This document shows, in pieces, positions 37,707-64,000 of a stretch of DNA of 64,000 nucleotides (positions within the stretch are counted from its first letter, which is position 1; the number at the start of each line of letters is the position of its first letter). The stretch lies in NCBI GenBank assembly GCA_037043015.1, contig CM073325.1:10085001-10149000 (forward strand), written 5' to 3'. The translations under genes were made by a program, and so were the position numbers. The notes beneath the pieces were generated by a model. It was not told the DNA's origin and did not search any database. It saw only the letters and a program-made list of their open reading frames with translations. The stretch is from Bryum argenteum. Lineage: Eukaryota > Streptophyta > Bryopsida > Bryales > Bryaceae.

Positions 37707-39114
37707 ATGGACCCGGAGCCGAATCGAGAGTCGACGATGGACGAAAGGGCCCTTGCTAACGATTTACAGACAGCAGACGTGGTCGAAACCTCAAATACCA
37801 GAGACGATGGTGAGGAGGGTCCAGAAGAAGAAAACCTGCCAGATTCCGACCAGAACTTTACGCTTGTACAAGAGGGGGACTGCAGGTGCTTTTACATTCT
37901 CGTGGTGCACTGATAAAGCCGAAGGATAATGTGCAGTTGTGTCGAAATCAGCAGAGACGCTAGTTCTTATTATCTGCATTTGGTATATTTATCTCCTTTG
38001 ACCTTGTTAACATCGGTATTTTATTGTATTTGTGTTATGTTCGATCGTTTCGTTACAGAATTTGTTTCGATCCGGCGAAAGCAGCACTTCCCATTATTGA
38101 AGTCGGTTGCCAATGCAAGAATGAGTCCCGCTATGGACATCAATCATGCCTCACGAGGTGGTTTGTAGGACAACTGAACAGATGTGGAACTTCGGATTGT
38201 GAAGTATGCAGGTAACATGCTTGACAAAGATGCTCTCTCACTAAAGTTGGAATTCTAAAGCCTTCTTAAATACCTGGGCAATCTTGTCGTGAACAACCTT
38301 CATCAGCGATTCGACGATGATGAATTGATGATGAAGAATTGCGGGCACCTGTTGTAGGAGTTCACTGGGAACACATCTTGAGACAATTGTAAGGACGACA
38401 TTCGAGGAAGCATCTCAGGCTCGAGTCGTTCGGTCGATACTAATCTTGGTTGAGCTTCCAATCGAGGAACTAGATCGTCTGCAAGTGCCAATCGACACTC
38501 CAAACTTCTATCAGCTTCCGCGAGCGAGAAGGCGGGCTTTGATTGCTTCTATGAATAGGCAAGAGGAATTACATCTCCGTGGTGGGACTCGTCTGATTAT
38601 TGCAAATCATGTATTTGCATACTTTCTTCCTGATAATGCTGGAACGTCAGTCTCGGTGCACTTTCTTGTTGATCATGCTGAAAGCCAAGCTAGTGCCCGT
38701 GAGGCTGCCGAGCTAATGGCTCGAGTCCTTTCTGGATCAGTGGAGCTCGTAGCTCAGTTTCCGAATGACGAAATCGGAGACATGCACGATACTCTCGGGG
38801 ATTTAAATAGCCCTGCACAGTGGGATAGGCACGTCGAATCAATCGGTGTGGACCATTTAATGCCTTCAGGTGATCAGCTTGAGAACCGGCTCAACGAGTT
38901 TTCTGAATCTTTCGACCTCCTTCCGGCAAATGCGGCAAATGCAAGTGAGGCTACGAGTGAAGCCATGCTAACCGAGTTTGTGCCACATTCTATGACTGTC
39001 GACCCATCATCTGATGAGGATATTCGCAGAGACGCTGATGAGCGCAGAGTTCGTAGTCCTAGACAGTGGACATATGGCAGGTTTCGGACATATTTGCTTC
39101 GCGACATTCCTTGA
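37707..39114 (+). CDS. RING-CH (MARCH-type) E3 ligase-like protein, intact copy
   Basis: Three exons (37707-37885, 38059-38211, 38337-39114) join in phase to give 369 aa. Residues ~58-110 form a complete C4HC3 RING-CH finger: CRIC, then GCQC, GHQSC and CEVC, with family-typical spacing (C-x2-C-x14-C-x-C-x7-H-x2-C-x16-C-x2-C). RING-CH proteins recruit E2 enzymes and act as ubiquitin ligases. The N-terminal ~57 residues are acidic. The ~260-residue C-terminal part (VELPIEELDRLQVPIDTP, MNRQEELHLRGGTR, MPSGDQLENRLNEFS, YGRFRTYLLRDIP) is not recognised. No clear membrane segment is seen, unlike many MARCH proteins. Exon 3 uses an AAG/A acceptor that I inferred from the long open frame. Confidence 0.75.
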
Positions 39115-40590: not shown

Positions 40591-41675
40591 ATGGACCCGG
40601 AGCTAAAGCGGGAGTCGAGGATGGACGAAAGGGCCCTTGCTATCGATCTGCAGACAGCGGACTTGGTTGAAGCCTCAATTATCAGAAGCGGTGATGAGGA
40701 GGGTCAAGAGGATGAAATTGGTCTGCCAGCATCCGACCGGACTTTTACGCTTCTACAAGACGGGGACAGCAGGTGCTTATAGATTTTCTTGGTGCACTGA
40801 TTGAGCCATAATTTTGGACATGGAACTTCTGATTGTGAAGTATGCTCTCTCACTTATTTTGAAATTCTAAACCCTTCTTAGATACCTGTAGTTCAATTTT
40901 TTCGTGATTGGCCATCATCAGCGATCTGACAATGATGAATTGATGATGGTGATGGATTGCGGGCACCTGTTGAAGGGATTCATTGGGAACACATCCTGAG
41001 ACAATTGTAAGGACGAGCTTGGAGAAAGCATCTCAGGCTCGAGTCCTTCGGCCGATACTACTCTTGCTTCAGCTTCCAGTCGAGGAACTAGGTCTTCTGC
41101 AAGTGGATGTCGACACTCCACCCTTCCACGATCTTACGCCAGCGACAAGGCAGTTTGTGATTGCTTCCATGGATAGGCAAGAAGTAATGCATCTACGTGG
41201 TGAGACTCGTCAGAGTACTGCAAATCATATAATGGCGTACTTTCTTGCTGTTATTGCCGAAGGGCCACTCTCCTTGCACGAGATCCAAGCTAGTGTCCGT
41301 GAGGCTGCCGAGCTTCGCGATCGAGTTCTGGCTGGATCAGTGCAGCTCGTGACTTTCGTAGGGAGAGGCATGCACGATAATGTCATGGAATTAGGGGACT
41401 ATGCGCAGTGGGATGGGCGGATCGAACAATACGGTGTGAAGCGGATAATGCCTTCAGGTGATCAGCTTGAGAACCGGCTCAACGAGTTTTCTGCGTATGT
41501 CGAGCACCTTGCAGCAAATGCGAGTGAGGGTACGAGTGAAGCCATGCTATTCAAGTTTGTGCCGCATTCTATGACTGTCGAACCATTCTCTGAAGAGGAT
41601 TATCGCACAGCTCCTGGTCTAAGAAAGTGCACATATGGCAGGTTTCGGGCTTTTTTGCTTCGCGATATTCCTTGA
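40591..41675 (+). pseudogene. RING-CH family copy that lost its RING exon
   Basis: Exon 1 is present (40591-40772, starting MDPELKRESRMDERALA), but its last cysteine codon, the first zinc ligand, is AGC (Ser): DGDSR instead of EGDCR. The RING exon is missing; only a short piece of its end remains near 40812-40845 (GGACATGGAACTTCTGATTGTGAAGTATG cut before the CAG/GT). The third-exon frame has a TGA where copy 1 reads Cys-Cys. A clean 230-codon frame at 40983-41675 still encodes the C-terminal domain, ending FLLRDIP. It is either a pseudogene or a RING-less derivative. Confidence 0.7.
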
Positions 41676-44627: not shown

Positions 44628-46219
44628 CAGTGACCTTCAAAAGTGTCCCAATGTTTATAATTTGAAAGTTTTGTGAGTCACCACATAGTGATTGCATGCT
44701 AGACTGACATGGCATCAATTTAGTTACATACTATCATTAGTAAGGTAATCAAGGAGCAAGGCTTACCACTTGTCTCTACATGTATGTGCATGAATTGAAG
44801 CTTCAGATATTTTCTCTTCATTGGGTGAATCTTGTATGAGTGAATCTTGTATGCATAGCAAGTGAAGTGTACATGCATTGTGAATTGCTTGGTTTGTGTT
44901 CTGTTGTGTGTATTTGTTCTTCTTGCGTCATATATTTGTTTCTTTCGTGTTTAGCTTCACAAGTGAAAATGGTGAGACCATTGTCCCAGGGGAAGCAACA
45001 AGGTATACTCTCTTTGCTTCAAAAAGGTTGTAGTGTGAGAGAGATAGCAAATTCTTTGCATGTTGGTAAATCAAGTGTACAGAGGTTCCGTAAGAAGCAT
45101 TTTCCAGATGCAAAGCTTTTAGTTGGAGGTAGACCACGCAAGTTGACAAGTGCAATGGAGCGGTCTTGTGTAACTAGTATAACAAGAGGGAAGGTGTCTA
45201 CTGCAAGAGAAGCTACTAAACATGTGCAAGAAGTTTTTGGAGTACAAGTCAGTGAAGTTACTGTACGCCGTGGACTTTGTAGAGCAGGTGTGCAATCGCA
45301 TGTGAAAGAAAAGAAACCACATTTGTCACGCAGTAATATTAGGGCTCGCTTAGAATTTGCCAGAAAGTATCAGCACTATACTATTGATGACTGGAGTCAC
45401 GTGATATTCTCAGATGAGACTAAAATTAACAGATTTTCTTCAGATGGGAGAGTTTGGTGTTGGGTTCGTGATCTACACAGGAACTTTCAGAGCGGACCGT
45501 TATTCCGACTGTTAAGCATGGTGGTGGTTCTGTGATGATATGGGGATGTATGTGTATACATGGACCTGGCATGATGTGTAGAATTGAAGGTCGCCTCAAT
45601 CAGCATGGTTATCAAAAAATCTTGGAGGAGCATCTCCATGGTACAATTCAAAAATATAATTCAGATCCATCGGGAGTCATATTTCAACAGGATAATGCAC
45701 CTATACATACCAGTAATAGTATGAAACAATGGTTTTCTAGGCAACCTTTTGGTGTCTTATCTTGGCCTGCTCAATCTCCAGATTTGAATCCTATAGAAAA
45801 TCTATGGGCAATTTTGAAAAGGAGATTGAATCGATATGACACACCACCAAAAGGGATACTTGAATTATGGTCTCGTGTGGAAGAAACCTTCCCTTCTATC
45901 ACTGTTGATGATTGCAAGAGACTTATAGAATCAATGCCCAGACGAATAGCAGCTGTATTAAAATCCAGAGGAAAATGGACAAAGTGGTGAGGAATTTCCA
46001 TGTTGGACGTTCAAAAGTGTACCAATGTACACAGTAGCTTTAAGTTTTTTTTCCTTTCTCATTGAGCGCTTCAATTTTGTTTGAATTTTTGTAATCAATT
46101 AGTACATTGTATGTACTATTTCAATAAATTTACTACATTCCATTCCATGAGTTTCTCTTACCTACATTATTTTTTGAATGTAACATGTACAAACATTGGG
46201 ATAGTTTTGAAGATCACTG
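44628..46219 (+). mobile_element. Tc1-like DNA transposon, 1592 bp
   Basis: The left end CAGTGACCTTCAAAAGTGTC and the right end, which reads CAGTGATCTTCAAAACTATC on the other strand, form inverted repeats of at least 32 bp with a few mismatches. TA lies immediately outside both (44626-44627 and 46220-46221). Length, TA target and transposase type all fit Tc1/mariner. It sits between RING-CH copies 3 and 4. Confidence 0.92.
44969..45990 (+). pseudogene. Tc1-family DD34E transposase with one frameshift
   Basis: MVRPLSQGKQQGILSLLQKG starts a helix-turn-helix pair (VREIANSLHVGKSSVQRFRK; GRPRK hook; a second HTH to about residue 110). The catalytic triad is complete: FSDETK, QQDNAPIH and NPIENLW, with 34 residues between the last Asp and Glu. 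A single-base change near 45485 shifts the frame; VKHGGGSVMIWGCM continues in the next frame to 45990. Apart from that shift no stop is seen, so the insertion may be fairly young. Confidence 0.88.
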
Positions 46220-48059: not shown

Positions 48060-49517
48060 ATGGACCCGGAGCCGAATCCAGAGTCGACGATGGACGAAAG
48101 GGCCCTTGCTAACGATCTACAGACAGCAGACGTGGCTGAAACCTCAAATACCAGAGACGATGATGGGGAGGGTCGAGAAGAAGAAAACGTCCCACATTCC
48201 GACCAGAACTTTACGCTTGTACAAGAGGGGGACTGCAGGTGCTTTTACATTCTCGTGGTGCACTGATAATGCCGATGGATAATGTGCAGTTGTGTCGAAA
48301 TCAGCAGAGAGGCTAGTTCTTATTATCTGCATTTGGTATCTTTATCTCCTTTGACCTTGTTAACATTGGTATTTTATTGTATTTGTTTTGTGTTCGATCG
48401 TTTCATTACAGAATTTGTTTCGATCCGGCGACACCAGAATGCCCCATAATTGAAGTCGGTTGTCAATGCAAGAATGAGTCCCGCTATGGCCATGAATCAT
48501 ACCTCACGAGGTGGTTTGTAGGACAATTGAAGAGACGTGGAACTTCGGATTGTGAAGTATGCAGGTAACATGCTTGACGAAGATGCTCTCTCACTAAAGT
48601 TGGAATTCTAAAGTCTTCTTAAATGCCTGCGCAATCTTGTCGTATTCAACCTTCATCAGCGATTTGACAATGATGAATTGATGATGAAGAATTGCGGGCA
48701 CCTGTTGTAGGAGTTCACTGGGAACACATCTTGAGACAGTTGTAAGGACGACATCCGAGGAAGCATCTCAGGCTCCAGTTGTTGGAGCATCTCAGGCTCG
48801 AGTCGTTCCGTGGATACTTATCTGGGTTGAGCTTCCAATCGAGGAACTAGATCGTCTGCAAGTGCCAATCGACACTCCAACCTTCTATCAGCTTCCGCGA
48901 GAGACAAGGCGGGATTTGATTGCTTCTATGAATAGGCAAGAGGAATTACGTCTCCGTGGTGGGACTCGTCAGATTATTGATGAGCATGCACTTGCATTAT
49001 TTCTTCCGGATACAACAGGAACGTCAGTCTTGGTGCACATTCTTTTTCATAAATAAATGCTGAAATGCCACACATCGCGCGCCAGAGCCAAGCTAGAGTC
49101 CGTGAGGCTGCCGAGCTTAGAGATCGAATTCTTGCTGGATCAGTGGAGCTCGTAGATCAGTTCCCTAGTGACGAAAGCCGAGATACCGTCGTGGATCACG
49201 ATACTGTTGCTGATATTAATAACCCTGCGCATTGGGATAGGCTTGTCGGAAGAAGCGCTGTGAACCGTTTAATGCCTTCAGGTGATCAGCCTGACAACCG
49301 GCTCAACGAGGTTTCTGAAACTGTCGACCTCCTTGCGGCAAATGCAAGTGAGGCTACGAGTGAAGGCATGCAATCTGAGTTCGTGCCACACTCCATGACT
49401 GTCGAGCCACCATCGGATGAGGATATTGGCAGAGACGCTGATGAGCGCAGAGTTCGTGGTCCTAGACAGTGGACATATGGCAGATTTCGGACATATTTGC
49501 TCCGCGACATTCCTTGA
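48060..49517 (+). pseudogene. RING-CH family copy with damaged finger and broken tail
   Basis: Exons 48060-48238 and 48412-48564 align with copy 1 without gaps, but the H-x2-C ligand pair GHQSC is GHESY, so one zinc ligand is lost (Cys to Tyr). Exon 3 starts at 48690. Compared with copy 1 it has a short in-frame duplication (GCATCTCAGGCT twice), then a TAA at 49054-49056 and a frame change caused by inserted bases near 49040-49080. The rest of the tail domain remains open at 49065-49517, ending YLLRDIP. Overall it is very similar to copy 1, so the duplication seems recent. Confidence 0.75.
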
Positions 49518-50314
49518 TCGATTGGGACTATTGTGCTACATTTATGTAGTTGATTGAATTGAAACTGTGATTTGTTCAGTTTATACTGGCTAGATTTTTG
49601 AGTGAATTGATGATGGAAGTCCTTGGAAACCACATGACCATCTTTGCAGTGGAAAGTTGTTTGATATGACAATCTTGAATAGGATGCTGATTGTCACTCT
49701 CGGGGTAGCAAAGCTCAATCGAATTGAGGTCGTTAAACGCTACAATTCAAATCATCACGGAGCAAGATGCATTATTTAAGTATATATGGACTTTGACGTG
49801 ATTTATGGACAGAGAATGGTGTGTAGAGATCGGGAGATAGCTCCATCATCAACACAGAAGATGAGAAAAAAAGTAGTTGCAGACGAAAAGAACATGTAAA
49901 ATAAAAAATACACGAAGAAAAACGGAATGACATGGTCTACGTATTGATTTGTTTACAGCATCCTCCGATGATAATTTTGTAATAGTAATATAGAATCTAA
50001 AGCAATGATGATTGAATGAGATGAGCAAAGCCTGTGAAACAATAGAGAATCCGAAGGAATTCAACAAGAGTGATAACCTCAATAGACCCGGGCGAGTAAT
50101 TATCAATTGGATTTTGAACGACTGTGTGAATTCAACCCAACGTGGAAGTGAAGGGCAATGATCAATACAAGTTCAGAACAGTGTCGAATACATCCATGAA
50201 ATTGAAGAAGTATCAATGGGGAGATCCACCGATTCAATCCTCGACCCCAATGTGGTCGTCAAAGGATTGCTAAGATTTTAAAGTCTATCTACTCTTGTAC
50301 ATAACAATTGCAGT
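49518..50314. other. Intergenic region
   Basis: To about 49740 it repeats the downstream flank of copy 1. The rest is AT-rich and shows no gene. Confidence 0.45.
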
Positions 50315-50893
50315 CTAAGCTCGCAGAAGCCGGCGACGGTTCTTTCCATCCATCTCAGAGTTGGCGAGAAACTTGCTAACACTTTGATAAGAACGAAGAG
50401 GCAAAATGAAGGGCAACAACGCCGTGGAGATATTAGGGATGATGTTCCGAGAATTAGGAAAGTCCATCTCCCCCTTCCAAGACTTCGGGAAGTAACAGCA
50501 CAAATCACCATTCCGCCTATTCCTCCATTGGCAGTCATCAACCATTAGTAAACGGTCGGGACGGCAAACTCTCCAGATCGGGTGATCCTTCGTTAAGCGG
50601 AGCAAAAGTTTTTGGCAGTAAGGGTACCAGTCCGGATTGTTGCACTTATTCCGTCCATAGACAAATAATAGCTTCGCTCGAATGTCATGGGGAAGTAAAT
50701 AGTCGATAACAAGACGTAATCGACCTATAGGCATAGAAGACCAGATGCCAACATGAAAATGCTTAAGGAGAATCCGAAAGAAAGAATGCAGTCCAGGCCG
50801 TCGACGGATTCTTTTTAAGTCGAACTGAGTTGGGTTACTTCCTCCGTAATCTTCGAAGCAAAGGACACCATTGACTGAGAACACAATCACATT
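50315..50893 (-). CDS. FCP1/NIF-like phosphatase fold, partial or degenerate
   Basis: After a possible acceptor (CATGCAG/AATGTG at 50894) a frame of about 192 codons runs to a stop at 50315. It shows the plant FCP1-like HAD pattern: NVIVFSVNGVLC at the catalytic loop, RRPGLHSFFRILLKHFHVGI, WSSMPIGRLRLVIDYLL, KLLFVYGRNKCN and RLLMVDDCQWRN. The catalytic aspartates are missing (SVN instead of DxD or DxN), so hydrolase activity is unlikely. No upstream exon with the N-terminus was found. It could be a pseudogene or the last exon of an undetected gene. Confidence 0.55.
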   Translation of the reverse strand, partial: NVIVFSVNGVLCFEDYGGSNPTQFDLKRIRRRPGLHSFFRILLKHFHVGIWSSMPIGRLRLVIDYLLPHDIRAKLLFVYGRNKCNNPDWYPYCQKLLLRLTKDHPIWRVCRPDRLLMVDDCQWRNRRNGDLCCYFPKSWKGEMDFPNSRNIIPNISTALLPFILPLRSYQSVSKFLANSEMDGKNRRRLLRA

Positions 50894-51496
50894 CTGCATG
50901 AACACGACACATTCAGAAAATGTTAGCAAAAGAGATTAGAAATAAAAATTGAGGAAGAATATCAGGGGATTCCCACTTGCTGTAAGGACAGACACTCCCT
51001 TATAATCGATGGCAGTCAGAGTAAACTCATCACAACAAAAGAACGACAATATAAGAGAATGGATAAGAAAAGGGTAAAGTCGAACAAAGTGAAACCTTCT
51101 GTATGGTGCTTGTAGGTGCTAAGTAAACAGACATAGATATGGATAACCTAGTGGCAGACGAGATAAAAAACCAAGTGTAAGTGGAGAAAACTAATCTAAA
51201 ACCCCATATTCGTTATATTGGGAAATATGCAGGACTTTGGGAGTTTTAAGAGTAGATAATCATCTGAAATATCTATGAATTTTAAGTATAAAGTACTAGA
51301 TGATGCATCAAACATGATATAAATATATGTAAAGAGAGACATAGCTTTGAAAAAACAATAAAAAAAGAATGGGAATAAAAGAATATTCCATTTATTCGCT
51401 TGTAAGTATCAAATCATGATTCACAAAATATGCCATGTAAGAGCGATGACTATCAAATCTATACAAAATTACTTCTGTAGTTAATAGATGTAACTA
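50894..51496. other. Spacer
   Basis: AT-rich, no gene seen. A CTAAAACCCCATATTCGTTA near 51200 resembles one end of the 42083-42328 MITE, but no partner end was found. Confidence 0.4.
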
Positions 51497-52246
51497 CTAC
51501 GGAGTTCCACCATAAGCAACAGTACGAGATTGGATGAATGCTCGTTGTCGCCGTTGTGTCCAGCTAGAATCAATGTCTTGCATCAATGGACTATCAAGAA
51601 GGCGTTGCAGTCTTTCGCGACGCCGGTCCTCAATGCTTGACTTAGGCAGCGAGTGACGGCGGTTTTCTGACGAAAGTTTGATTGCTCGTTGTTCCGTAGA
51701 CTCCAAAGGACATGCATTTGGACTCTCTAAAATAGGACCCTGGACAAAATGAAACAATGGCATTTGTTATAAGTGAACGAGCGAATAGATACATACATGC
51801 AATAGGTAGCATAAGAGTACAATGTCTAAGAATTGTGTAACATATAAGTGTGTAAAGCAGTAATTCTACAAATAGTTATTCGTTATTGCAAATACTTAAC
51901 TCAAGAGCACTAAATGCACAGTGGAACAAACCTTTACAAAAGCTTCACCAGAAATATCCGCATCAATGTCGTATAACATACGCTTCGTAGGCGTACATGT
52001 AATTTGAAGAGGAGACCCAATCTGATTTATTGTTGGAGGCGACACAGGGGAAGCCGATTGCAACACCTTTGGAGGTGTTGACTTAGTGACAGGGCTGTTA
52101 ACTACTCCATCTTCAACTGCCATTGTAGAGAAATCCATGGTAGATTGAGCCGTTTCAGCAGACTGCAATAATCGTCCTCTACTCCGAAGTGAAGGCCCGA
52201 AATCCGCAGCAATCATCAGAGAATCCACAGAAGCACGACAATCACC
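51497..52246 (-). CDS. Two exons of an unrecognised protein
   Basis: Exons 52246-51932 and 51739-51497 join in phase 0 with good sites (CGCAG/GGT, AAG/GTTTGT, TCCAG/GGT) and give 185 residues to the stop. The sequence is Ser-, Pro- and Thr-rich (SPVTKSTPPKVLQSASPVSP) and ends with a basic helix (SIEDRRRERLQRLLDSP). These may be 3' exons of the FCP1-like gene upstream, but I find no donor in that gene in the required phase before its stop. They may also be a separate gene whose start I cannot place. Confidence 0.4.
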
Positions 52247-52402
52247 CTGCGTAATCTATTTCAACAATTTTTCAAACTGAAAATTCAGAAACAAATGAAA
52301 AGTCCTACAAAGCTACTACGGGAGGCTCACATCGTAAGATACAAATTCAACTTAAAGTCAAAGGGTCGAAAATTACTTGACAGTAGAATATAAAATAATT
52401 TT

Positions 52403-53568
52403 TCATTCTATTAATGCCTTTTGTATATCATTATACAGATCTAATGATGCACGATCATCATATAACATGGCACGTCCAAATGGTAACGATGACGGAAACT
52501 TGCTAAGGGAACCGTCAAACTCATGGAACTCTAACAGATACGGCAAAATCTCATCTAACAAAATAGAATCCTCGTGTGCCCTATTGTCCTTGTGAGACCA
52601 GGATGGTAGTAAAATAACATTTTCCCGCTGATTAAGCACGTGCTTAACTGGACTATCATCTATGATGAGCGTATTAGCCTCTGTATAAAAACCATCAAAA
52701 CTATTGAAGAGATGAGCTGACAAGGTCTTAAGGAAGATAGACTTCTGAGTTCCCGGTTCCTTCATGAACAATGGTCTGCTCCCACCAGATTTCAAGGGAA
52801 TCATGTCACAGTCTTCTTGACCAAGAATTCGTAGTGGTCTTATAGGGATTATAGGACCGAAGAGAAATTCACAAATGGCCACTGTGGTTGTTCTCATCAT
52901 CGAACTCCAAACCGTAATGGTAGCAAACGATGCCACCCGAGAGAGGAAGTCCTTACAGTTGGGCCTCACCCATACAAGCTTCTTCCCCACCTCGGTTGGC
53001 AACGTGGCTGAGTGAATACGGAAGTCCCGATTTCTGTATCCTTTAGCTTCCCAAAATGGGGAACAACTGCAGAGGATACCATTGAGGTCGAGAACAACAT
53101 TTAACCAAGTACCGGAGGATTTGCTTGGAACCCGACCTATGTCTTCTCTAGAAATTAAATCATTGACCGATGCTTCGTTGACCTGAAATGAAAACGGCGC
53201 ACCACGACAAAATTACTGGGGAGCTTTCGTCACTGGTGCGATGAATTCAAGGTCAGAAACATAAAACACATCGCAACGAAGGCATGGGGTGAGAGTAGTG
53301 TTTGTAGAGCAGAAAATACCTGATTATCATAATTGCTCTCCTCTAAGTCAACTCGGACACCCATTGACCCGAGCGACTGCTCAGTGCAATCTATCTCATC
53401 ACGGACAGCAACCACATTCTCTGTATGTGGGACATTATGCATCTTAAGTGTGTTCTCCACGGATGGAACCCGCTCATGGTCATAACATTCAAGCGTGACA
53501 TCATCCATGACTGGAACATCGATTGCTTCGTCATCCAAATTAACATCTGGCAAGCAATACAAATTCAT
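52403..53568 (-). CDS. FCP1/NIF-like HAD-fold protein
   Basis: Two exons (53568-53320 and 53182-52403) join in phase 0 and give 342 aa. The first ~85 residues are acidic. The HAD core follows: NVVLDLNGILC (catalytic loop with Asp then Asn in place of the second Asp), KLVWVRPNCKDFLSRV, ITVWSSM, SIFLKTLSAHLFN and NTLIIDDSP, ending with the family's PFGRAM and helix. The DLNG variant is typical of a plant group of FCP1-like proteins (as I recall from Arabidopsis), whose phosphatase activity is unproven. It is next to a second, more degenerate copy. The upstream frame starts with TTG, so ATG 53568 was chosen. Confidence 0.7.
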
Positions 53569-53640
53569 GGAATCAGGAAACAATAAGATGGAGGAAATAA
53601 AATATGGGAGCCATCAAGATGCAGATAGAAAAAAGGGCAA

Positions 53641-53667
53641 CAGTTTAGCTCGAGTCGAGCTAAACTG
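53641..53667. repeat. Single copy of the 27-bp palindrome
   Basis: CAGTTTAGCTCGA, a central G, then the exact reverse complement. It lies 118 bases beyond the stop of the GQH/methyltransferase-like gene, probably in its 3' UTR. Confidence 0.95.
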
Positions 53668-53784
53668 CAGAATAGTAAAGGCCTGTATTAATTACAAAAA
53701 AATGTCTGAGTTCGATACAAAATTTCACATGTATATGTGTTTTCCGGCATTTACAGCTTAAATACTATACACTCGATCCAAAAT

Positions 53785-56700
53785 CTAAGTTGAAGGAGGA
53801 CCTGGAGATTCTTCTTCTTCGTCACCCACTGGTCCTCTTTCAGGTACGGGAGAGGAAGGCGTAGGTGCGGGAGGCTCGGTAGTTGGAGGCGGCAGAGACG
53901 GAAGTGGTTGCAGGGATGCAGGATCAGCACGGGTAGCAGTGGTTGCCATTGCCCGCACCGAAGATAATGCGTGGCCAGCCGTTAAACTCTCAAACATCTG
54001 CATCAAAGTGTCATGGCGTTCTTGTTCCCTCTTTTCGCGTTCCCGCTGCTCAAGGTTCTGCTGTGTGAGGAGCTCTTCCAACTTCTTCCGGTGTGCCATC
54101 TCCTCCTCAACCTTGCGCTGTAGTGCTGCCAATTCAGCACTCTCCTCGGCCTTGAATCTACTTGAGGGTGAGTCCCTCGACAGCGGATTACGTTTCCGCT
54201 TAGCACTCCCTCTGCCTCCTCCTCGCCCGGGAGCAGTCCGCGACTCCTGCGGTGTCCGAGGGGTCGTGTCGATTTCCATGTACTGCTCTTCGTCATCCCC
54301 TCCGGAACAAAGGCTGTAAGTGCTGCCTTCAACGTGAAGTTGCCTTCCACTTGACCCAGAGTCCTCCTGGTTGGGGACGTCTGCCTCATCCTCGAGTGCC
54401 TCGTCATCCAAAGACGCTACAGCTTTGCGCTTGCCTTTCAAGAGCATGGCGCCAACCTCCGGGAACTCGACTTTGTCGACAAAGTACCCGCTGACGGAGA
54501 AGTCAGTAGGATCCAGGGTAAGCCCTTCATTGTACGCCTGGTCGATGTCCTCTCTATCTTCGGCGTCAAAAATAGCGTAGGCGTCAAGAGACAACATCTA
54601 CAACGAAAACAGCGCAGCATCAAGAACTGATATAATCTGTAAGTAAAGCGGAAATTGTTCGGGAACAAGCTAGACGGTTTAGCTCGAGTCGAGCTAAACT
54701 ATCATGCAGTTTAGCTCGGGTCGAGCTAAACTGTCATGCAGTTTAGCTCGACTCGAGCTAAACTGTAGGGGTTCCTATGCGATCGAAGATAATCGGGTTT
54801 TGGTACTGCGAAGCTTACCATGCTTGCGCAAACTGCTTTCCCGCCTGCGTAGACAAGAAAGATATTCTCTTGCTCCTGACAGAATAGCTGGATGACCTGC
54901 AAATAGAAATCCATCCGTAACTCGATCGGGTACATGTGGTACCGTGACTCGTTGTATTTCCGTGGCTTCTCATAAAGCGCGTGCTTTGGAGCGCGGTACT
55001 CTGCATGAGGCATACGCGCGAGGTTCACGTTTCCCCGGATCATGAAGAGAAGACGCACCGGCTCCGAGGCTTGCTTCGCTTTCGCGTTGTATCCGGCGAG
55101 CCGTTCGTGCGGGGATGGATAGTACATCGACGGGATCAGCTTATAATTCCCTGGGAAGAATTCAGGATTGGTCGCGAACGCCTCAACTTGCGCATATTCA
55201 CTGTCACCCCCGCAAATAAATAACCAGCAGGGCACATCTTTCAGAGCTGGCTTGTTCTGGGACGACAGGATCGCCATGAACATTTCGAAGAATGGGTGGT
55301 CAGGCGAGGAATCAGCTGAGGTACTACAACTACCCGGAACCAATCTGAAGTCGATGATCCCGACGTTCATCTCCGGTGCAGGTTCTGCCCATTTGTTTTC
55401 AGGCCAGTCTTTCAGCCTCTGTGGTGTTTTGCGCTCGAAGGAACGGAATATGAGAGTACCAACCGGGCCAGTAAACTTTTCGCGCTTCTCCAGAAAAACC
55501 TCGAAGAACCTCTTCGCGTAGGGAGAGAGATCTTCGCAGCTGGTGTTCCTGTGCTGGGTTTGCCTTTGGTCCGCGTAGAACTTATCAGGTATCCCCCATT
55601 CCAGGAGTGCGCGCTTTGAGGCCTTCGTGACGTGGAAATCTTTCTTGAATTTCTTCCACGCGACCACGTCGAACTCGTTGTTCTTGAAGATTCCCAGTTC
55701 AGGTCTGATCTTGTGGATCTGAAGCTGGGCGGTCGCCTTACGCTTCAACCGTTCAACGTACTCCTTCACGGAGTAGCAATCTTCAAGAAGTGTTACTGGT
55801 TGTTTGAGAGTAACCTTCGGGTATTCCAGTTTACGTGACGGACCTGATCTATTCAACATATGTGAACAGAGTTTTCTATGGTCCGACTCCGAGAGGTTAC
55901 CGAGGTTCTTAAAAAACTCCCTCGACAAGGTTTGATCGCTGTCCGGTTTAAACCCTGGCTTGTCACATAACTGCCTCAAAGAGTAGGGGTCGATAAGCGT
56001 GCCTTGGGCGACACTTCCGATCAACTCTGCCCACAGGTTCCAGAGATCTTCAGGAAAGGTGATAATCTTCAGCTCATTCGTTAGGGACAAGACCTTGTGC
56101 TTCACCTCTCCTTGGGCCTTGGCAACGTCAATTATGGCGAACCTATGTTGGATGGAGTCCACGAATTTCTGCAACGCCACAAGTAAGATGTCAGAGTGGT
56201 AGAAAGCGGAAGCTTTTTCTTTCGCTTGCATATGGAATTCAATAGCTGTAAATATTTTTAGTTTATTAAGCAGATAGGACAGTTTAGCTCGACTCGAGCT
56301 AAACTGTCACAGTTTAGCTCGAGTCGAGCTAAACTGTCTTTGCTGTTTAGCTGGACACGACATTAAGTGCATAGACAGTTTAGCTCGACTCGAGCTAAAC
56401 TGCAATTACAGTTTAGCTCGAGTCGAGCTAAACTGTCTTCGATGTTCAGCTGGACACGACATAAACTGCATAGACAGTTTAGCTCGATTCGAGCTAAACT
56501 GAAACGACAGTTTAGCTCGAGTCGAGCTAAACTGTCTTTGCTATTTAGCTTGACACAACCTATACTGCATAGACAGTTTAGCTCGACTCGAGCTAAACTG
56601 TAATGACAGTTTAGCTCGAATCGAGCTAAACTGTAATGAGAGTTTAGCTCGACTCTAGTTACACTGTTACAGGAAACAATTTGCTATGATAGTAAATAGG

Positions 56701-58204
56701 TGTGATGCGACATGAGTTACCACTTACGTCGAAATTTGCGAATTGTGACACAACTCGCTTTGTTTGTACGCGCTTATCCGCCACCCCAGCTGCTGCATGT
56801 CTGTTCGCTGGGCGCCCGTAATTCTCCCACACAGTGCGGGCGGCAAGGATGTTCGATGCCCATGTCGGCTTAAATGGAGTGAAGTGGTTCACTCTGTTAT
56901 AAAACGCCGAAATCTTGCGGAGCTTAGCTTCATCCTTTGTCCAAACTACGAAAGCTGACCATACCCGGAAGTCTTTTCGGATCGTCTCTGGGACATTGGA
57001 CTCAAGCATCTGCTTTGAGGCGGCAACGCTGTGCTGGCCGTTGATGATCCAAAACTGGCAGTCCTGCATATCTTCCAGGCCGTTCGGCTTCACATCCAGT
57101 TTGGGCATGACGCAGAGCGTTTGCTTCTGGGACCTGTCGGGCATATTGATGAGATAATTCATCAAGTCTGTTTTGCCCTTCTTCTCGAAAGCCCGAATGG
57201 TCCATTCGGGGGGGGGACTCGATCATCCTCATCAAGTCGACCTCTATCTTTGTGTCAGGTTTCGGAAATACGAAACAGTCCTGACAGTCCGTGAAGAACT
57301 TCTGATAGATTAAGTTGACGTTCTCGAAGTCGATCTCCTCCACGGTGTTGACGTTCTTTGGAATGCATTTAATAGCATCGTTCAAAGCCGTTAGAGCATC
57401 CTCCTCGGGGATGAGCATGTTCTTTTTCTTCTTCGCCTCGGTCGACTTCTTCACGGGAGCTTCTCTCCTTATTAGAGGCGAGTCTGTAGTCGTGGTGGTT
57501 GTTGGAGTGGGCCTAGTTGCACGTTGCGTGCGCGTTGGGGTCCTGCTCTGTACGCCGCTCCTGGTTGCAGTCAGCCCAGATCCCTCCAGTGCCGCTTTCC
57601 CTTTCATGTGTATAGTCTTTGCCGTAATCTCAGCGTGTGTGAGAGCAGAGACTACGGATCGCAGTTTGATGGCGAGCTGCTTGGCCTTCAGCTCTCCCCC
57701 TTGTTTGGTGTGCCATGCTTTCATAAGCATATCCTGTTTCAGTGTGGTTTTGATATCGTCGAAACTGGACGGCTCCAAACTCTCAACTAACTGGCCCAGC
57801 TCAAAACCAGTCTGCTTGATGTCGATCAGTATGGTGTAGTTGTATGCTTGCTCCTTGTCCTTCTCCTTGAAGGTTGTTAGAGTAGCAATGATTTCTTTCT
57901 CCGTTTCGTGATCGAAGTCCGTGAGCTTGGAATCCATGTCGATGGAAATGGGGTCTTCTACGTTTCCTTCGTAGGTCACGACGAGTGTAAGGAATGCTGT
58001 ATACGGAATCCATCTGGCCGACCAGGACACAACTTTTGATGGGTCCTTGAATTCCCAGCAGTCCAACTGCTTCGTGTCGTCGCCATCGTCCTCGTCAACA
58101 TCCGATGGCCTAAGCTTGAAGAAGTGTTGGAGCGCCTCCATGACTCGTGCCTTCTCCTGACTGTGAATGGACATTGAATTAGTTGATGGAATGCCATGTA
58201 GCAT
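53785..58204 (-). CDS. Large GQH (ParB-like) and methyltransferase-like protein, frameshifted
   Basis: Three exons: 58204-56721, 56245-54819 and 54597-53785, phase-consistent, about 1240 codons once the shift at the G9 run (57208-57216) is allowed for. The N-terminal part is acidic (SDVDEDDGDDTKQ). The middle has DCQFWIINGQHSVAASKQM, which resembles the GQH(R) motif of ParB-like and DGQHR proteins. Exon 2 ends PIELRMDFYLQVIQLF and NIFLVYAGGKAVCASM; joined to MLSLDAYAIFDAED in exon 3 this looks like the motif-I region of a permuted DNA methyltransferase. A DPPY motif is not evident (IDFRL at the likely place), so activity is doubtful. The tail has a nuclear signal (AKRKRN), a coiled coil and a Pro-rich end. 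I do not know this architecture as a named family. Junction 1 uses GTAACT (A/GTGG/GTAACT) because it fits phase; the stronger GTAAGT does not. Leader, introns and 3' flank hold palindromes. Confidence 0.6.
54598..54818 (-). repeat. Intron 2 with three 27-bp palindromes
   Basis: Palindrome copies lie at 54675-54700 (first base pair altered), 54707-54733 (one arm A to G, a G-U pair in RNA) and 54739-54765. They occupy the middle of a 221-bp GT-AG intron (ATG/GTAAGC, TTGTAG/ATG). Short TCATG spacers separate them, spacing 32 bp. Confidence 0.9.
56280..56665 (-). repeat. Intron 1 array: eight palindromes in ~99-bp double units
   Basis: Copies start at 56280, 56310, 56376, 56409, 56475, 56508, 56574 and 56606, with a decayed ninth at 56641. 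Spacing alternates about 33 and 66 bp, so the higher-order unit is a pair of palindromes plus a spacer containing TTAGCTGGACACGACAT and TGCATAGA. The array fills most of intron 1 (56246-56720) of the minus-strand gene. Confidence 0.93.
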
Positions 58205-58293
58205 AGATTATAGTTCTTTCTAGTACTTGTAATTAGCTTATCTTTACGTTTTCATGTCCATACAGCTAGAAGACTTTGACTGACTACTTGAAA
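58205..58293 (-). promoter_or_regulatory. Short leader between start codon and palindrome array
   Basis: The sequence directly upstream of ATG 58204. A CATTCACAG acceptor-like site just downstream (near 58160) leaves open that the first coding exon begins there and that the array is in a leader intron. Confidence 0.35.
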
Positions 58294-59246
58294 CAGTTTA
58301 GCTCGAGTCGAGCTAAACTGGAGCTGCTGGGACCAGCTTCAGTTTAGCTCGACTCGAGCTAAACTGTAGATGCTTTTGTCGCCTTCAGTTTAGCTCGAGT
58401 CGAGCTAAACTGTTGACGGATGTCTCTTCTCTATTGACATTTGTTTTGTTAGTTTTAGTTCTTTACTGTTGGTTTGTCGGACTTTATACTTATGTCTAGT
58501 TTCTACGTTAATTAATAACTACCAATGGTGAACAGCTTTAACAGTTTAGCTCGACTCGAGCTAAACTGTAGAGTCTGGTGCCAGCTACAGTTTAGCTTGA
58601 GTCGAGCTAAACTGTAGAGTAACATGCCAACAACAGTTTAGCTCGACTCGAGCTAAACTGTTGTTAACAATTAATTTTGCAGTTTAGCTCGACTCGAGCT
58701 AAACTGTAGAGGCTTTTGCCACCTTCAGTTTAGCTCGAGTCGAGCTAAACTGTTGACGGATGTCCCTCCTGAATTGGATTTTGTCTTGTTAGTTTTATTT
58801 TTTACATGTTGGTTTGTTTATCTTTTTATCCGTATCTATTTTCTTCGTTATCAAATAGCTACTAACGATTTGTTAACATACATGTGATTTAGCTCGACTC
58901 GAGCTAAAATCAGAGGCTGATGCCCGACTTGATTTAGCTCGAGTCGAGCTAAACTGTTTTACGGGTTATTATCTGCTAGTGTTTATTTATTTTGGTACTG
59001 TATACCCATAACTATTTTATTTTTGCTTTATCTGTTGCAGCAGTTTAGCTCGACTCGAGCTAAACTGTAGATGCTGGTGCCAGCTACAGTTTAGCTTGAG
59101 TCGAGCTAAATCAGAAATAACGTGCCAACGATTTAGCTCGACTCGAGCTAAATCAGAAATAACGTGCCAACTACAGTTTAGCTCGACTCGAGCTAAACTG
59201 TAGAGGCTCCTGTCCACTACAGTTTAGCTCGACTCGAGCTAAACTG
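58294..59246 (-). repeat. Leader array: fifteen palindromes with 46-bp period
   Basis: Copies start at 58294, 58340, 58386; 58542, 58588, 58634, 58680, 58726; 58885, 58930; 59041, 59087, 59130, 59174 and 59220. Within blocks the period is 46 bp (27-bp palindrome plus 19-bp spacer; 43-44 in two places). Several spacers, such as TAGATGCTGGTGCCAGCTA, are themselves inverted repeats. Blocks are separated by T-rich stretches that are similar to each other (TTGTTAGTTTTA, TTGGTTTGTC / TTGGTTTGTT), so the blocks arose by larger duplication. Confidence 0.93.
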
Positions 59247-60967: not shown

Positions 60968-61064
60968 GCGCCGACCTCCGCGAACAACGAGCGCAGCAGC
61001 GCCGCCGACCTCCGCGAACAACGAGCGCAGCAGCGCCGCCGACCTCCGCGAACACGCAACAGCA
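60968..61064. repeat. GC-rich 34-bp tandem repeat, three copies
   Basis: Units at 60968-60998 (31 bp, lacking one CGC), 60999-61032 and 61033-61064 (variant end) share CGACCTCCGCGAACAACGAG. The surroundings are GC-rich and open in several frames, which explains the long frames here. Confidence 0.85.
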
Positions 61065-61519
61065 AGCGCGGAATACTTCCGTGGAAGAACACCTCGCACT
61101 GCGCAGCGCGAAATGGCGCGAAAACTCTCCGATCCTCCTCGTCGACTATGACAATGAAAACCCCGATGACTCGCGCAAGAAGACAAGTGCCAGACACTGG
61201 CGCTCACTCCGAGGAAATAACCAGCAGACTAAAATTGCAGAAAAGCACAAAACTCCCGGAAAAGCAGGAGCGCAGTAAATAGACCAACGCCGGGAAAGAG
61301 GACCGCAGCGGAGCAGGCAAACGAGAGGACAAAGGCTGGAGAAAAGGAGCGCAGCTGAGCAAGGAAACGAGGAAGATGGAGAACGAATGGAGAACCTGCT
61401 CGTAATGGCAGGTAAGTGGGGGGGACGAGACTCCCAGGTAAGTGGGGGAAGTGGGGGGGGTGGGATGTGACCTCCGTGAAAAAGGCGGCGGTGGTGGGAC
61501 GTCCAATCCCATCACCAAA
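61065..61519. other. GC-rich spacer with G-runs
   Basis: G-rich tracts (AAGTGGGGGGGACG, AAGTGGGGGAAGTGGGGGGG) lie at 61415-61470. No gene can be supported. Confidence 0.4.
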
Positions 61520-61629
61520 GCTTTTTCATGCGTATGATGATGTGCATGGACATGGCCATGCACATGGGCATGCATACATACATGCATGACCATGTACATG
61601 ACCATGCCCATGCACATGATCATGGGCAT
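61520..61629. repeat. CATG-rich simple sequence
   Basis: About 100 bp made almost only of CATG, GCATG and ACATG words (for example CATGGACATGGCCATGCACA). It is rich in self-complementary steps. Immediately downstream composition switches to AT-rich. Confidence 0.85.
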
Positions 61630-64000
61630 GACAAAATGATTAATTTAGTATTTATTTTTCGCAATTTTGTTACATTTTAACTATGTTTTGAATATTATTT
61701 TAGTTTACTAATTCTTGGCTAAGTTTTGACATACATTTGACTATGTCCAAGTTTTGTCCCAATTTTCACTAAGTAAATGTCAAGGATTTTAGTGGAAGTT
61801 TTTTAACTAAATTTTGACTAAATTTAGTACATTAAAGAACTTCGAATTCTTAGGTTCAAACACAATACTTAGAGAGTACATTGTTGTCTATCTTTTGTAA
61901 AACAAAATCTATCATGTTTAATTTTTTTCCCGTGCACAATACCTCCATGAAACACCAATTTAGAGTTAAACAAATTCTATATAATTATGAGGTTGTTGAT
62001 TTTCTAACTACTCTGTATTTTTGGTTTATCTTCAGTATAACGAATAGGAAAAATATCTGTACCACATATTGTCCTAGAAATATTAATTTGTCTACTTCTA
62101 AAGTATGTACAACTTAAATTGATGATTATTTACAAGTATGAAACATAGTTTGTTGGTAGAAATATATATATATAACCGTAAGTACATATGCTAAGAATTC
62201 AAAGACGTGAATATTTTTCTTGTACTCTAGTTACATGGCAGTAAAGTATGACAAAATCTATAGGATTCCTATCAAAAGGCAAGACTTGCAAATAGTAAAC
62301 TGATGTGATTTTTTTAAAAATTAGGAATCAAAATGATCACTATTTATCATAACACTATAGTCTTCTATATGCCACCAAAAAAAAATATAAAAATAATAAA
62401 TAAATAAATAAATAAATAATTAAATAAATAAATAAAAATAATGGTAAATAAGTTATTTCGGTAATAGTCGATATTAAACGACATCTTTAATGAATATTTT
62501 ATTGGAAAATATAAATTTGGATGAAGAGATAATATTATACACATTAAATTTGTGAATCTATGGATATTTTATAGTTTTTTCATAAATATGCTAATGTAAA
62601 TAATTAAATAAAAGTCACCAGAAGCTAAAGTATCTTATAAATATAGTATTTAGAAAGATAACAGTTCTTAAGAAAAATTATTGAATACACATAGAAATCA
62701 AAAATTATTGATTAGACTATTTATTAAATATATTAATACATCTTAATATATATATATATCTCTAATTTAGAGAACTGATACGCCAAGAAATACATGCACG
62801 TCTGAATATAGAATTTGGAATTAATATGTCAATAAATAGATCATTTGGAAATTATAATTATTATTTTTATTCACATTAAAAGAATTAATAAATAAGGAAT
62901 CCAATAAATATAGTTTTGTATAGATGTTATTTGGGTATTAAAATTAATAAATTTACTATTTCATAATTGATTATTTGAGAAAAGGTTAGGAATAAAGTAT
63001 TAATAAATATGGAATACATTTGTTATTTAGAATAAGCAGATTGAAGTAGTAAAATGGGATGGTTGATTCAGTTACGATCATTGAAGTTTGTTGACGGTGT
63101 TTTATGATCACTATTACTATGTTCAAAGTCAAATTCATACACTATTGATTCAATGTTGGCTAGTGTTAGCTCCTTGTCTTCACCTTCGAAGTAGAAATTG
63201 GGTTAAAAATGCTCAGGATACATGTTTCTCGGCTAATGATCTTAGTGATCCCATCAATCAATCTCTGGTCATTCTTCGAATGGCTGTTTTAGTGTCACCA
63301 AAACGTCAAACTTAAACCCAATGTATCATTTCCCTTTTTTACGTCATCGAGAAACTCATATATTCAGAAGAAGTTCTCAATAAACCCTTTCTCTTAAAAG
63401 TTTTTTCTCGAGAGATATGATATTTTTTCAAATTTTGATATTTCAATAAATAGAGTATTTGGCAACAAAAGTTAATAACTGAATTATTAATTCAAAAATT
63501 GTATTAAGCGAAGTACCAACATTTTTAAAAAAACGATAAATACTTCTATTAATAGATAAGGATAAGAGATTCATAAATAAGACTAGGAAGAATGGTGAAA
63601 GTTCGCACAAATGTAAATTTGGATTTATTTGATGGCAAATATAAGTTAAGGACATTAAGTACTGTAAAACTATAATTGAAAGACATGTTATTGCATAGAG
63701 GGATTCAATAAATTTCTTAAACTGTAAGCTATAAATATTGTCTATTCTATAGAATTTTACAATTTACATACATCAAAAAGTAAATATTGTTGATAATATA
63801 ATGACTATGATAACAATTTAAAAATATGAAAGCATCTATTAGTTAACAGAGTTGCTTACATTGTTATTTGCACTGTACAACGATCATTTCTGTACATTCA
63901 TTGTTATTGCATGTTCATTTAATTAAAACCATTTTTGTTCATTAGTATGTGTTTAAATTTATTTATAAGGTAGTAGAATAAATTATTAAATAACAGTCAC
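61630..64000. other. AT-rich region without genes
   Basis: Strongly AT-rich to the end of the window. A TAAA-type microsatellite (AAATAAATAAATAAATAA) lies at about 62391-62446. No RNA gene, transposon terminus or domain-bearing frame was found on either strand. Confidence 0.6.

Follow-up and report, generated by a model that had tools for sequence, protein, structure and literature searches.

Palindrome arrays around a three-exon gene

The stretch analysed here, hereafter the window, comprises 64,000 nucleotides of the moss Bryum argenteum (assembly GCA_037043015.1, contig CM073325.1, positions 10,085,001 to 10,149,000) and contains a minus-strand gene of three exons whose leader, introns and 3′ flank hold repeated copies of a 27-bp palindrome (Table 1). 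Gene and arrays belong to a large DNA transposon, in which the palindromes probably act as protein-recognition sites. Each unit consists of an arm, a free centre base and the reverse-complement arm, CAGTTTAGCTCGA-N-TCGAGCTAAACTG, as an earlier note on this DNA had described. A scan of the whole window allowing up to five mismatches found 28 units, 20 of them exact, between 53641 and 59246 (15 in the leader, nine in intron 1, three in intron 2 and one in the 3′ flank) and zero outside these limits, in line with the earlier observation. Intron 1 has eight exact units and one relic.

The leader array mostly follows a 46-bp period, its first unit lying some 90 bp upstream of the ATG, and the intron 1 array mostly a 33-bp period, with diverged relics between units. 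Each exact unit has 13 bp of self-complementarity. The expectation from base composition is 1.4e-11 exact copies, against the 20 in the window. Across the whole genome, 258.8 Mb in 25 contigs, 1,323 were counted, and the pattern read backwards, searched over the same sequence as a control, gave 0. The claim that the units are confined to a single gene thus stands inside the window only: the genome-wide count rules it out, the three-exon gene is itself multicopy, and a further array of the same copy lies upstream of a gene for a DUF7869 protein on L025, the stretch read to the right of the window. An assembly artefact is an unlikely source of the arrays because diverged copies on several contigs show the same arrangement.

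Two further observations concern the arrays. The leader spacers (58300-59240) of some copies contain, by eye, the short inverted repeat GCTGG-CA-CCAGC. The arrays at 56363-56683 and others like them translate as open frames with a repeated SLARVELNC, and in moss genomics such arrays risk being mis-annotated as protein repeats.

Table 1. Features of the transposon copy in the window
Feature	Positions	Strand	Basis
Left terminal inverted repeat AACCCCATATTCGTTATATTGGGAA	51200..51224	+	Matches ends of other copies, whose matches begin at 51200
NIF/FCP1-like phosphatase gene inside the element	51896..53613	-	Pfam NIF, multicopy DNA
Palindrome unit between the three-exon gene and the phosphatase gene	53641..53667		Exact
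Three-exon gene, exon 3	53785..54597	-	Open reading frame, homologues in other copies; splice site by eye
Intron 2 array, 3 units	54675..54765		Palindrome scan
Three-exon gene, exon 2, with methyltransferase-like C-terminal half	54819..56168	-	Splice sites by eye
Intron 1 array, 9 units	56280..56666		Palindrome scan
Three-exon gene, exon 1, frame interrupted	56728..58204	-	Open reading frames in two frames
Leader array, 15 units	58294..59246		Palindrome scan
Internal conserved part of the element, running past the window edge	60993..64000		Multicopy DNA

The arrays are part of a DNA transposon

That the palindrome arrays are part of a transposon is practically certain. Terminal inverted repeats AACCCCATATTCGTTAT (at most one mismatch) were present at both ends in five of the seven copies with both end regions inspected; in the other two, one end was not found. 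All five two-ended copies are flanked by identical 4-bp target duplications (TATG, TATT, AACT, ATAC and TTAA) and span 17,984 to 22,584 bases by coordinate subtraction. The inverted ends and the fixed length of the target duplication place the element among the terminal inverted repeat (cut-and-paste type) DNA transposons. The window copy starts with an exact left end at 51200 and is cut at window-equivalent position 68971; other copies run about 1.1 kb further to their right end.

The DUF7869 protein (E 3.9e-43) is encoded to the right of the window, at L025 2762-5113, and from its context is probably the transposase of the element. Five palindrome units lie upstream of its gene (L025 2428-2711), some 2.3 kb beyond the edge of the window, in the same element copy as the window arrays.

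Other parts of the element are repeated in the genome as well. Exon 2 of the three-exon gene has at least 91 genome matches (88 of 1,076 candidates scored), some of which are fragments of one copy, and the sequence on both sides of the gene is multicopy along with it among the matches listed. The phosphatase-gene DNA (51700-53640) has copies up to 96% identical, the best other copy of 61400-63400 is 90% identical, and 60993-64000 is 88% identical to L008. The NIF-like gene, which also occurs in a diverged subfamily (69.5% DNA identity, L021), was recognised from a Pfam NIF match for 52403-53002 (E 2e-10), and the open reading frames 51896-52255, 52403-53212 and 53230-53613 probably form one phosphatase gene.

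Contig C1 (44.09 Mb of the 258.8 Mb) carries 71 of the 91 exon-2 matches listed and 43 of the 67 palindromes whose centre is A or T. Among the matches listed, 10 of 71 on C1 are free of stops, versus 15 of 20 elsewhere, which suggests that old copies accumulate on C1, possibly a sex chromosome (U or V). A viral origin of the element was considered and rejected, as scans of viral contigs turned up neither the exact palindrome core nor relatives of exon 2 or the transposase.

The arrays occupy fixed non-coding places

The 67 palindromes just mentioned are all the units in the genome with centre A or T. A set of 22 loci selected by palindrome (20 on C1 and two on other contigs) holds 26 of them, three more are in the window and L043, and the remaining 38 lie outside the sample. 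All 22 loci encode the three-exon gene or the transposase, which bears out the suggestion that the expansion is tied to the gene or to an element; in the loci read, covering 29 of the 67 units, there was no even spread of copies without a link to this gene family. For 38 of the 67 units a listed element feature is no more than 20 kb away, as against a mean of 3.9 and a maximum of 14 in 1,000 random placings, with the extents of two contigs guessed and the feature lists incomplete. Two places outside C1 that lack a listed feature nearby carry the element nonetheless when read.

Placing was counted over 28 stretches, namely the window, the 22 palindrome-selected loci, L025 and four loci chosen by gene. 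Units were present in every leader (20/20), first intron (15/15) and second intron (14/14), in 11 of 12 of the 2-kb regions before the transposase, and in the 3′ flank (up to 400 bp from exon 3) of eight of 14 loci, and these five places account for 624 of the 672 units. Of the other 48, 35 are at stretch ends without a neighbouring exon, three resemble, in position or by homology, units of the 3′ flank or of intron 2, four represent a minor diverged pair common to L013 and L022, one is in L044, and five are in L013 (9250-9461), 0.5 kb beyond the right end of that copy. The last five have a 53-bp period and longer arms, approximately GCCCATTTAGCTCGA-N-complement, with different outer letters; they match other loci through the units alone and are possibly a relative family. 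Where coding sequence was mapped, by tblastn with the three-exon gene and the transposase only and with trimming at splice sites set by eye, none of 619 units overlapped it (75,567 coding bases of 301,725 in 26 stretches). The arrays are placed in the same way in both subfamilies. A palindrome that moves by itself, one of the earlier proposals, is disfavoured by this distribution, in which only the five L013 units lie clearly outside.

Changes in the palindrome core are mostly one-sided

In a comparison of 586 units, each of the ten positions next to the centre is paired between the arms in 94-99% of cases; pairing is partial at positions 11-15 and beyond position 16 stays within 0.09 of expectation. 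In the resulting 21-bp core, changes on one side only number 166, versus three complementary double changes. The two subfamilies have 57-59% protein identity in exon 2, and 71-76% of fourfold sites differ between them, which amounts to saturation; L041, a member of the diverged subfamily, has an unaltered core in 30 of its 33 accepted units, and the window in 24 of 27. Because core changes are one-sided despite this saturation, sequence-specific protein binding fits better than hairpins. CpG transitions make up 64 of the 196 core changes counted in 636 units, a pattern expected of DNA with methylated cytosines.

The three-exon gene and its predicted product

The window copy of the gene is broken, exon 1 shifting frame near 57165-57222; in L009, L011, L015 and L041 exon 1 is one open frame. 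Splice signals and agreement of phase, judged by eye, set the exon limits. The C-terminal part of exon 1 contains a ParB/DGQHR-like motif, INGQHSVAAS, in which the GxxR of the ParB P motif is absent, the rows covering it reading GQHS in 11 of 12 cases and GQRQ in one. Exon 2 reads IIDFRL where DPPY/W is expected, with DFRL in all 13 rows covering the motif.

Searches of the protein against Pfam, PHROGs, NCBIfam and PDB sequences found nothing credible, and the exon 1 and exon 2 pieces gave no Pfam match, hence none of the VANC domains (DUF1985, DUF287) discussed below. For the predicted structure of exon 2 residues ~219-450, all 50 rows listed in both fold comparisons with the PDB are methyltransferases. 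The second match in a viral library is a phage protein named ParB/Sulfiredoxin, a weak match (E 0.014, probability 0.47, template modelling score (TM) 0.25), and the exon 1 model (predicted local distance difference test score (pLDDT) 33.5) is too poor for use. Weak evidence thus suggests that the product resembles a fusion of a ParB-like and a methyltransferase-like part, with altered catalytic motifs.

Possible function of the palindromes

A role as sequence-specific protein sites is probable because a fixed core of two-fold symmetry recurs many times over in leaders and introns belonging to a single element. Among the functions that the earlier note had put forward, a protein-binding site is the one best supported by the conservation of the core and its one-sided changes. 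In a DNA transposon of the cut-and-paste type, 18-23 kb long, the palindromes would serve as cis-acting recognition sites, bound in the leaders and introns by a dimeric protein that contacts two identical half-sites TCGAGCTAAA. The binder may well be the element's own ParB-like/methyltransferase-like product, a proposal in which confidence is evenly divided. Protein spread along the whole element might mark its DNA as self and counter host silencing, as VANC does on VANDAL transposons; anti-silencing as the effect is proposed more tentatively, by analogy, with simple autoregulation as the other possible effect. Taken as a whole, the explanation that the transposon's own dimeric protein counters host silencing from the arrays seems to us about evenly poised. 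More doubtful is the origin of the gene, for which the fusions of ParB with methyltransferases described in phages and archaea suggest a source: the transposon could conceivably have captured such a fusion, now a catalytically altered DNA reader shielding the element through parS-like palindromes.

Several observations weigh against this interpretation. At positions 11-15 matched pairs are modestly above expectation (0.59 versus 0.48 at position 13). The L013 variant keeps its symmetry with different outer letters, and both findings speak against the flanks being read purely as sequence. The same five L013 units lie outside the element copy. The moss core is conserved, unlike the VANDAL motif, which diverges quickly, and a core nearly the same in subfamilies of such divergent proteins would suit a slowly evolving host reader. 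Accepting units at few mismatches also flatters the conservation; the counts drop steeply, with 438, 124, 24, 19 and 14 units at 0 to 4 mismatches.

A host reader is the alternative that survives best, although it appears unlikely. The palindromes would then be recognised by a transcription factor or chromatin factor of the moss, and the element would exploit them as promoter and intronic enhancer. Arrays directly upstream of two element genes (from 58294 in the window and at L025 2428-2711) and in introns would agree with this, as would the array just outside the L013 copy and the similarity of the core between subfamilies with 57-59% protein identity. The presence of the element at all 22 palindrome-selected loci, with only the five L013 units clearly outside in the stretches read, which cover 29 of the 67 units with centre A or T, argues against a host factor, and tens of copies per element seem beyond the needs of a promoter.

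Binding by the transposase, as at the subterminal repeats of other transposons, is improbable. The element does have its own DUF7869 gene with one array beside it, but the arrays sit in the interior: from the left end of the window copy (51200) it is 2.4 kb to the closest unit (53641), and within the L013 and L016 copies the closest unit stays about 3.4 kb short of the right end. A functionless selfish micro-satellite, spread by tandem slippage within the element, is less probable again; it would account for the 33- and 46-bp periods and the diverged relics between units, but not for the retention of the core next to near-background positions beyond ±16 and in the face of saturated fourfold sites, nor for identical placing in both subfamilies. 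Least probable are hairpins in RNA or DNA acting in splicing, as double-stranded RNA or as cruciforms, including the pairing between introns raised earlier, for which the self-complementarity of exact units, the excess of matched pairs at ±11 to ±15 and the symmetry of the L013 variant can be cited, against the 166 one-sided and three complementary double changes in the core and the occurrence of arrays outside introns, upstream of two genes.

Neighbouring features

A 1.43-kb repeat (49764-51200) abuts the left end of the element; it has about 30 relatives among the matches listed, mostly on C1, and holds a second NIF-like open reading frame (50315-50929). Directly right of the truncated element, L025 5882-9013 (minus strand) holds what is left of a diverged, now degraded gene of the DUF7869 type. 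Further left in the window, 44840-45990 encodes a Tc1-like transposase split between two frames, and 38446-39114, 40983-41675 and 48688-49517 are related open reading frames of the VELPIEELDRLQV family, apparently a local tandem family; a Pfam search of the first two gave no match. Elsewhere in the genome, a LEAFY DNA-binding domain is, counted by eye, different at 4 of 106 residues aligned with the Physcomitrella chain 4bhk_A, which by itself makes a moss host very probable.

Comparison with known systems

Literature searches by the palindrome letters and by LARVELNC returned a match only on lung cancer, judged by title, and a search for DUF7869 found nothing. Among the papers listed on palindromes in moss, Sola elements and large moss transposons, none had a title concerning this element, and the excerpt of PMC12695648 has nothing on mosses.

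Ginger, according to an excerpt of PMC2836005, is among the DNA transposon superfamilies that share the 4-bp duplications. The moss element differs from Ginger in that its ends are not TGTNR, its targets are not CCGG and its candidate transposase is a DUF7869 protein.

Fusions of ParB with N6/N4 methyltransferase domains in phages, or with MT-A70 domains in archaea, are described in part of PMC12704722. The moss system resembles ParB-parS and these orphan fusions in combining a palindromic site with a protein that may consist of a ParB/DGQHR-like part followed by an amino-methyltransferase-like fold; it is unlike them in belonging to a eukaryotic transposon, in reading GQHS for GxxR and in having no sequence-profile match. 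The predicted fold of exon 2 residues ~219-450 may be shared with METTL14-type pseudo-methyltransferases and with the beta-class DNA adenine methyltransferases MboIIA, CcrM and MTA1, as may the motif order, judged by eye.

The moss element is unlike VANDAL in its DUF7869 gene and 4-bp duplications, in a palindrome of 21-27 bp as opposed to a 9-base motif, and, compared with VANC, in a protein without a Pfam match. The VANDAL transposase is Mutator-like and its target duplication is 9 bp. The likeness lies in layout: VANDAL21 and VANDAL6 too have a second gene next to that for the transposase, and tandem repeats of short motifs in introns and in the intergenic and terminal non-coding DNA of the element (excerpts of PMC5735166 and PMC10398659). 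According to these excerpts, VANC proteins of Arabidopsis VANDAL transposons remove methylation and bind much more weakly in coding parts, and VANC is the described case of sequence-specific anti-silencing encoded by a plant transposon; the short motifs that they bind form tandem repeats in introns and elsewhere in the non-coding DNA of the element that encodes them (PMC5735166, in part).

The three-exon gene, which is not itself a VANC, is proposed as a functional counterpart of VANC, and the best reading by analogy is a VANC-like anti-silencing system of another lineage. If so, sequence-specific anti-silencing would have arisen in plants twice, independently. An unrelated element of the same layout, with a palindrome that hardly varies and a second gene of unusual kind, would show that such self-recognition arises repeatedly and would offer a compact targeting module.
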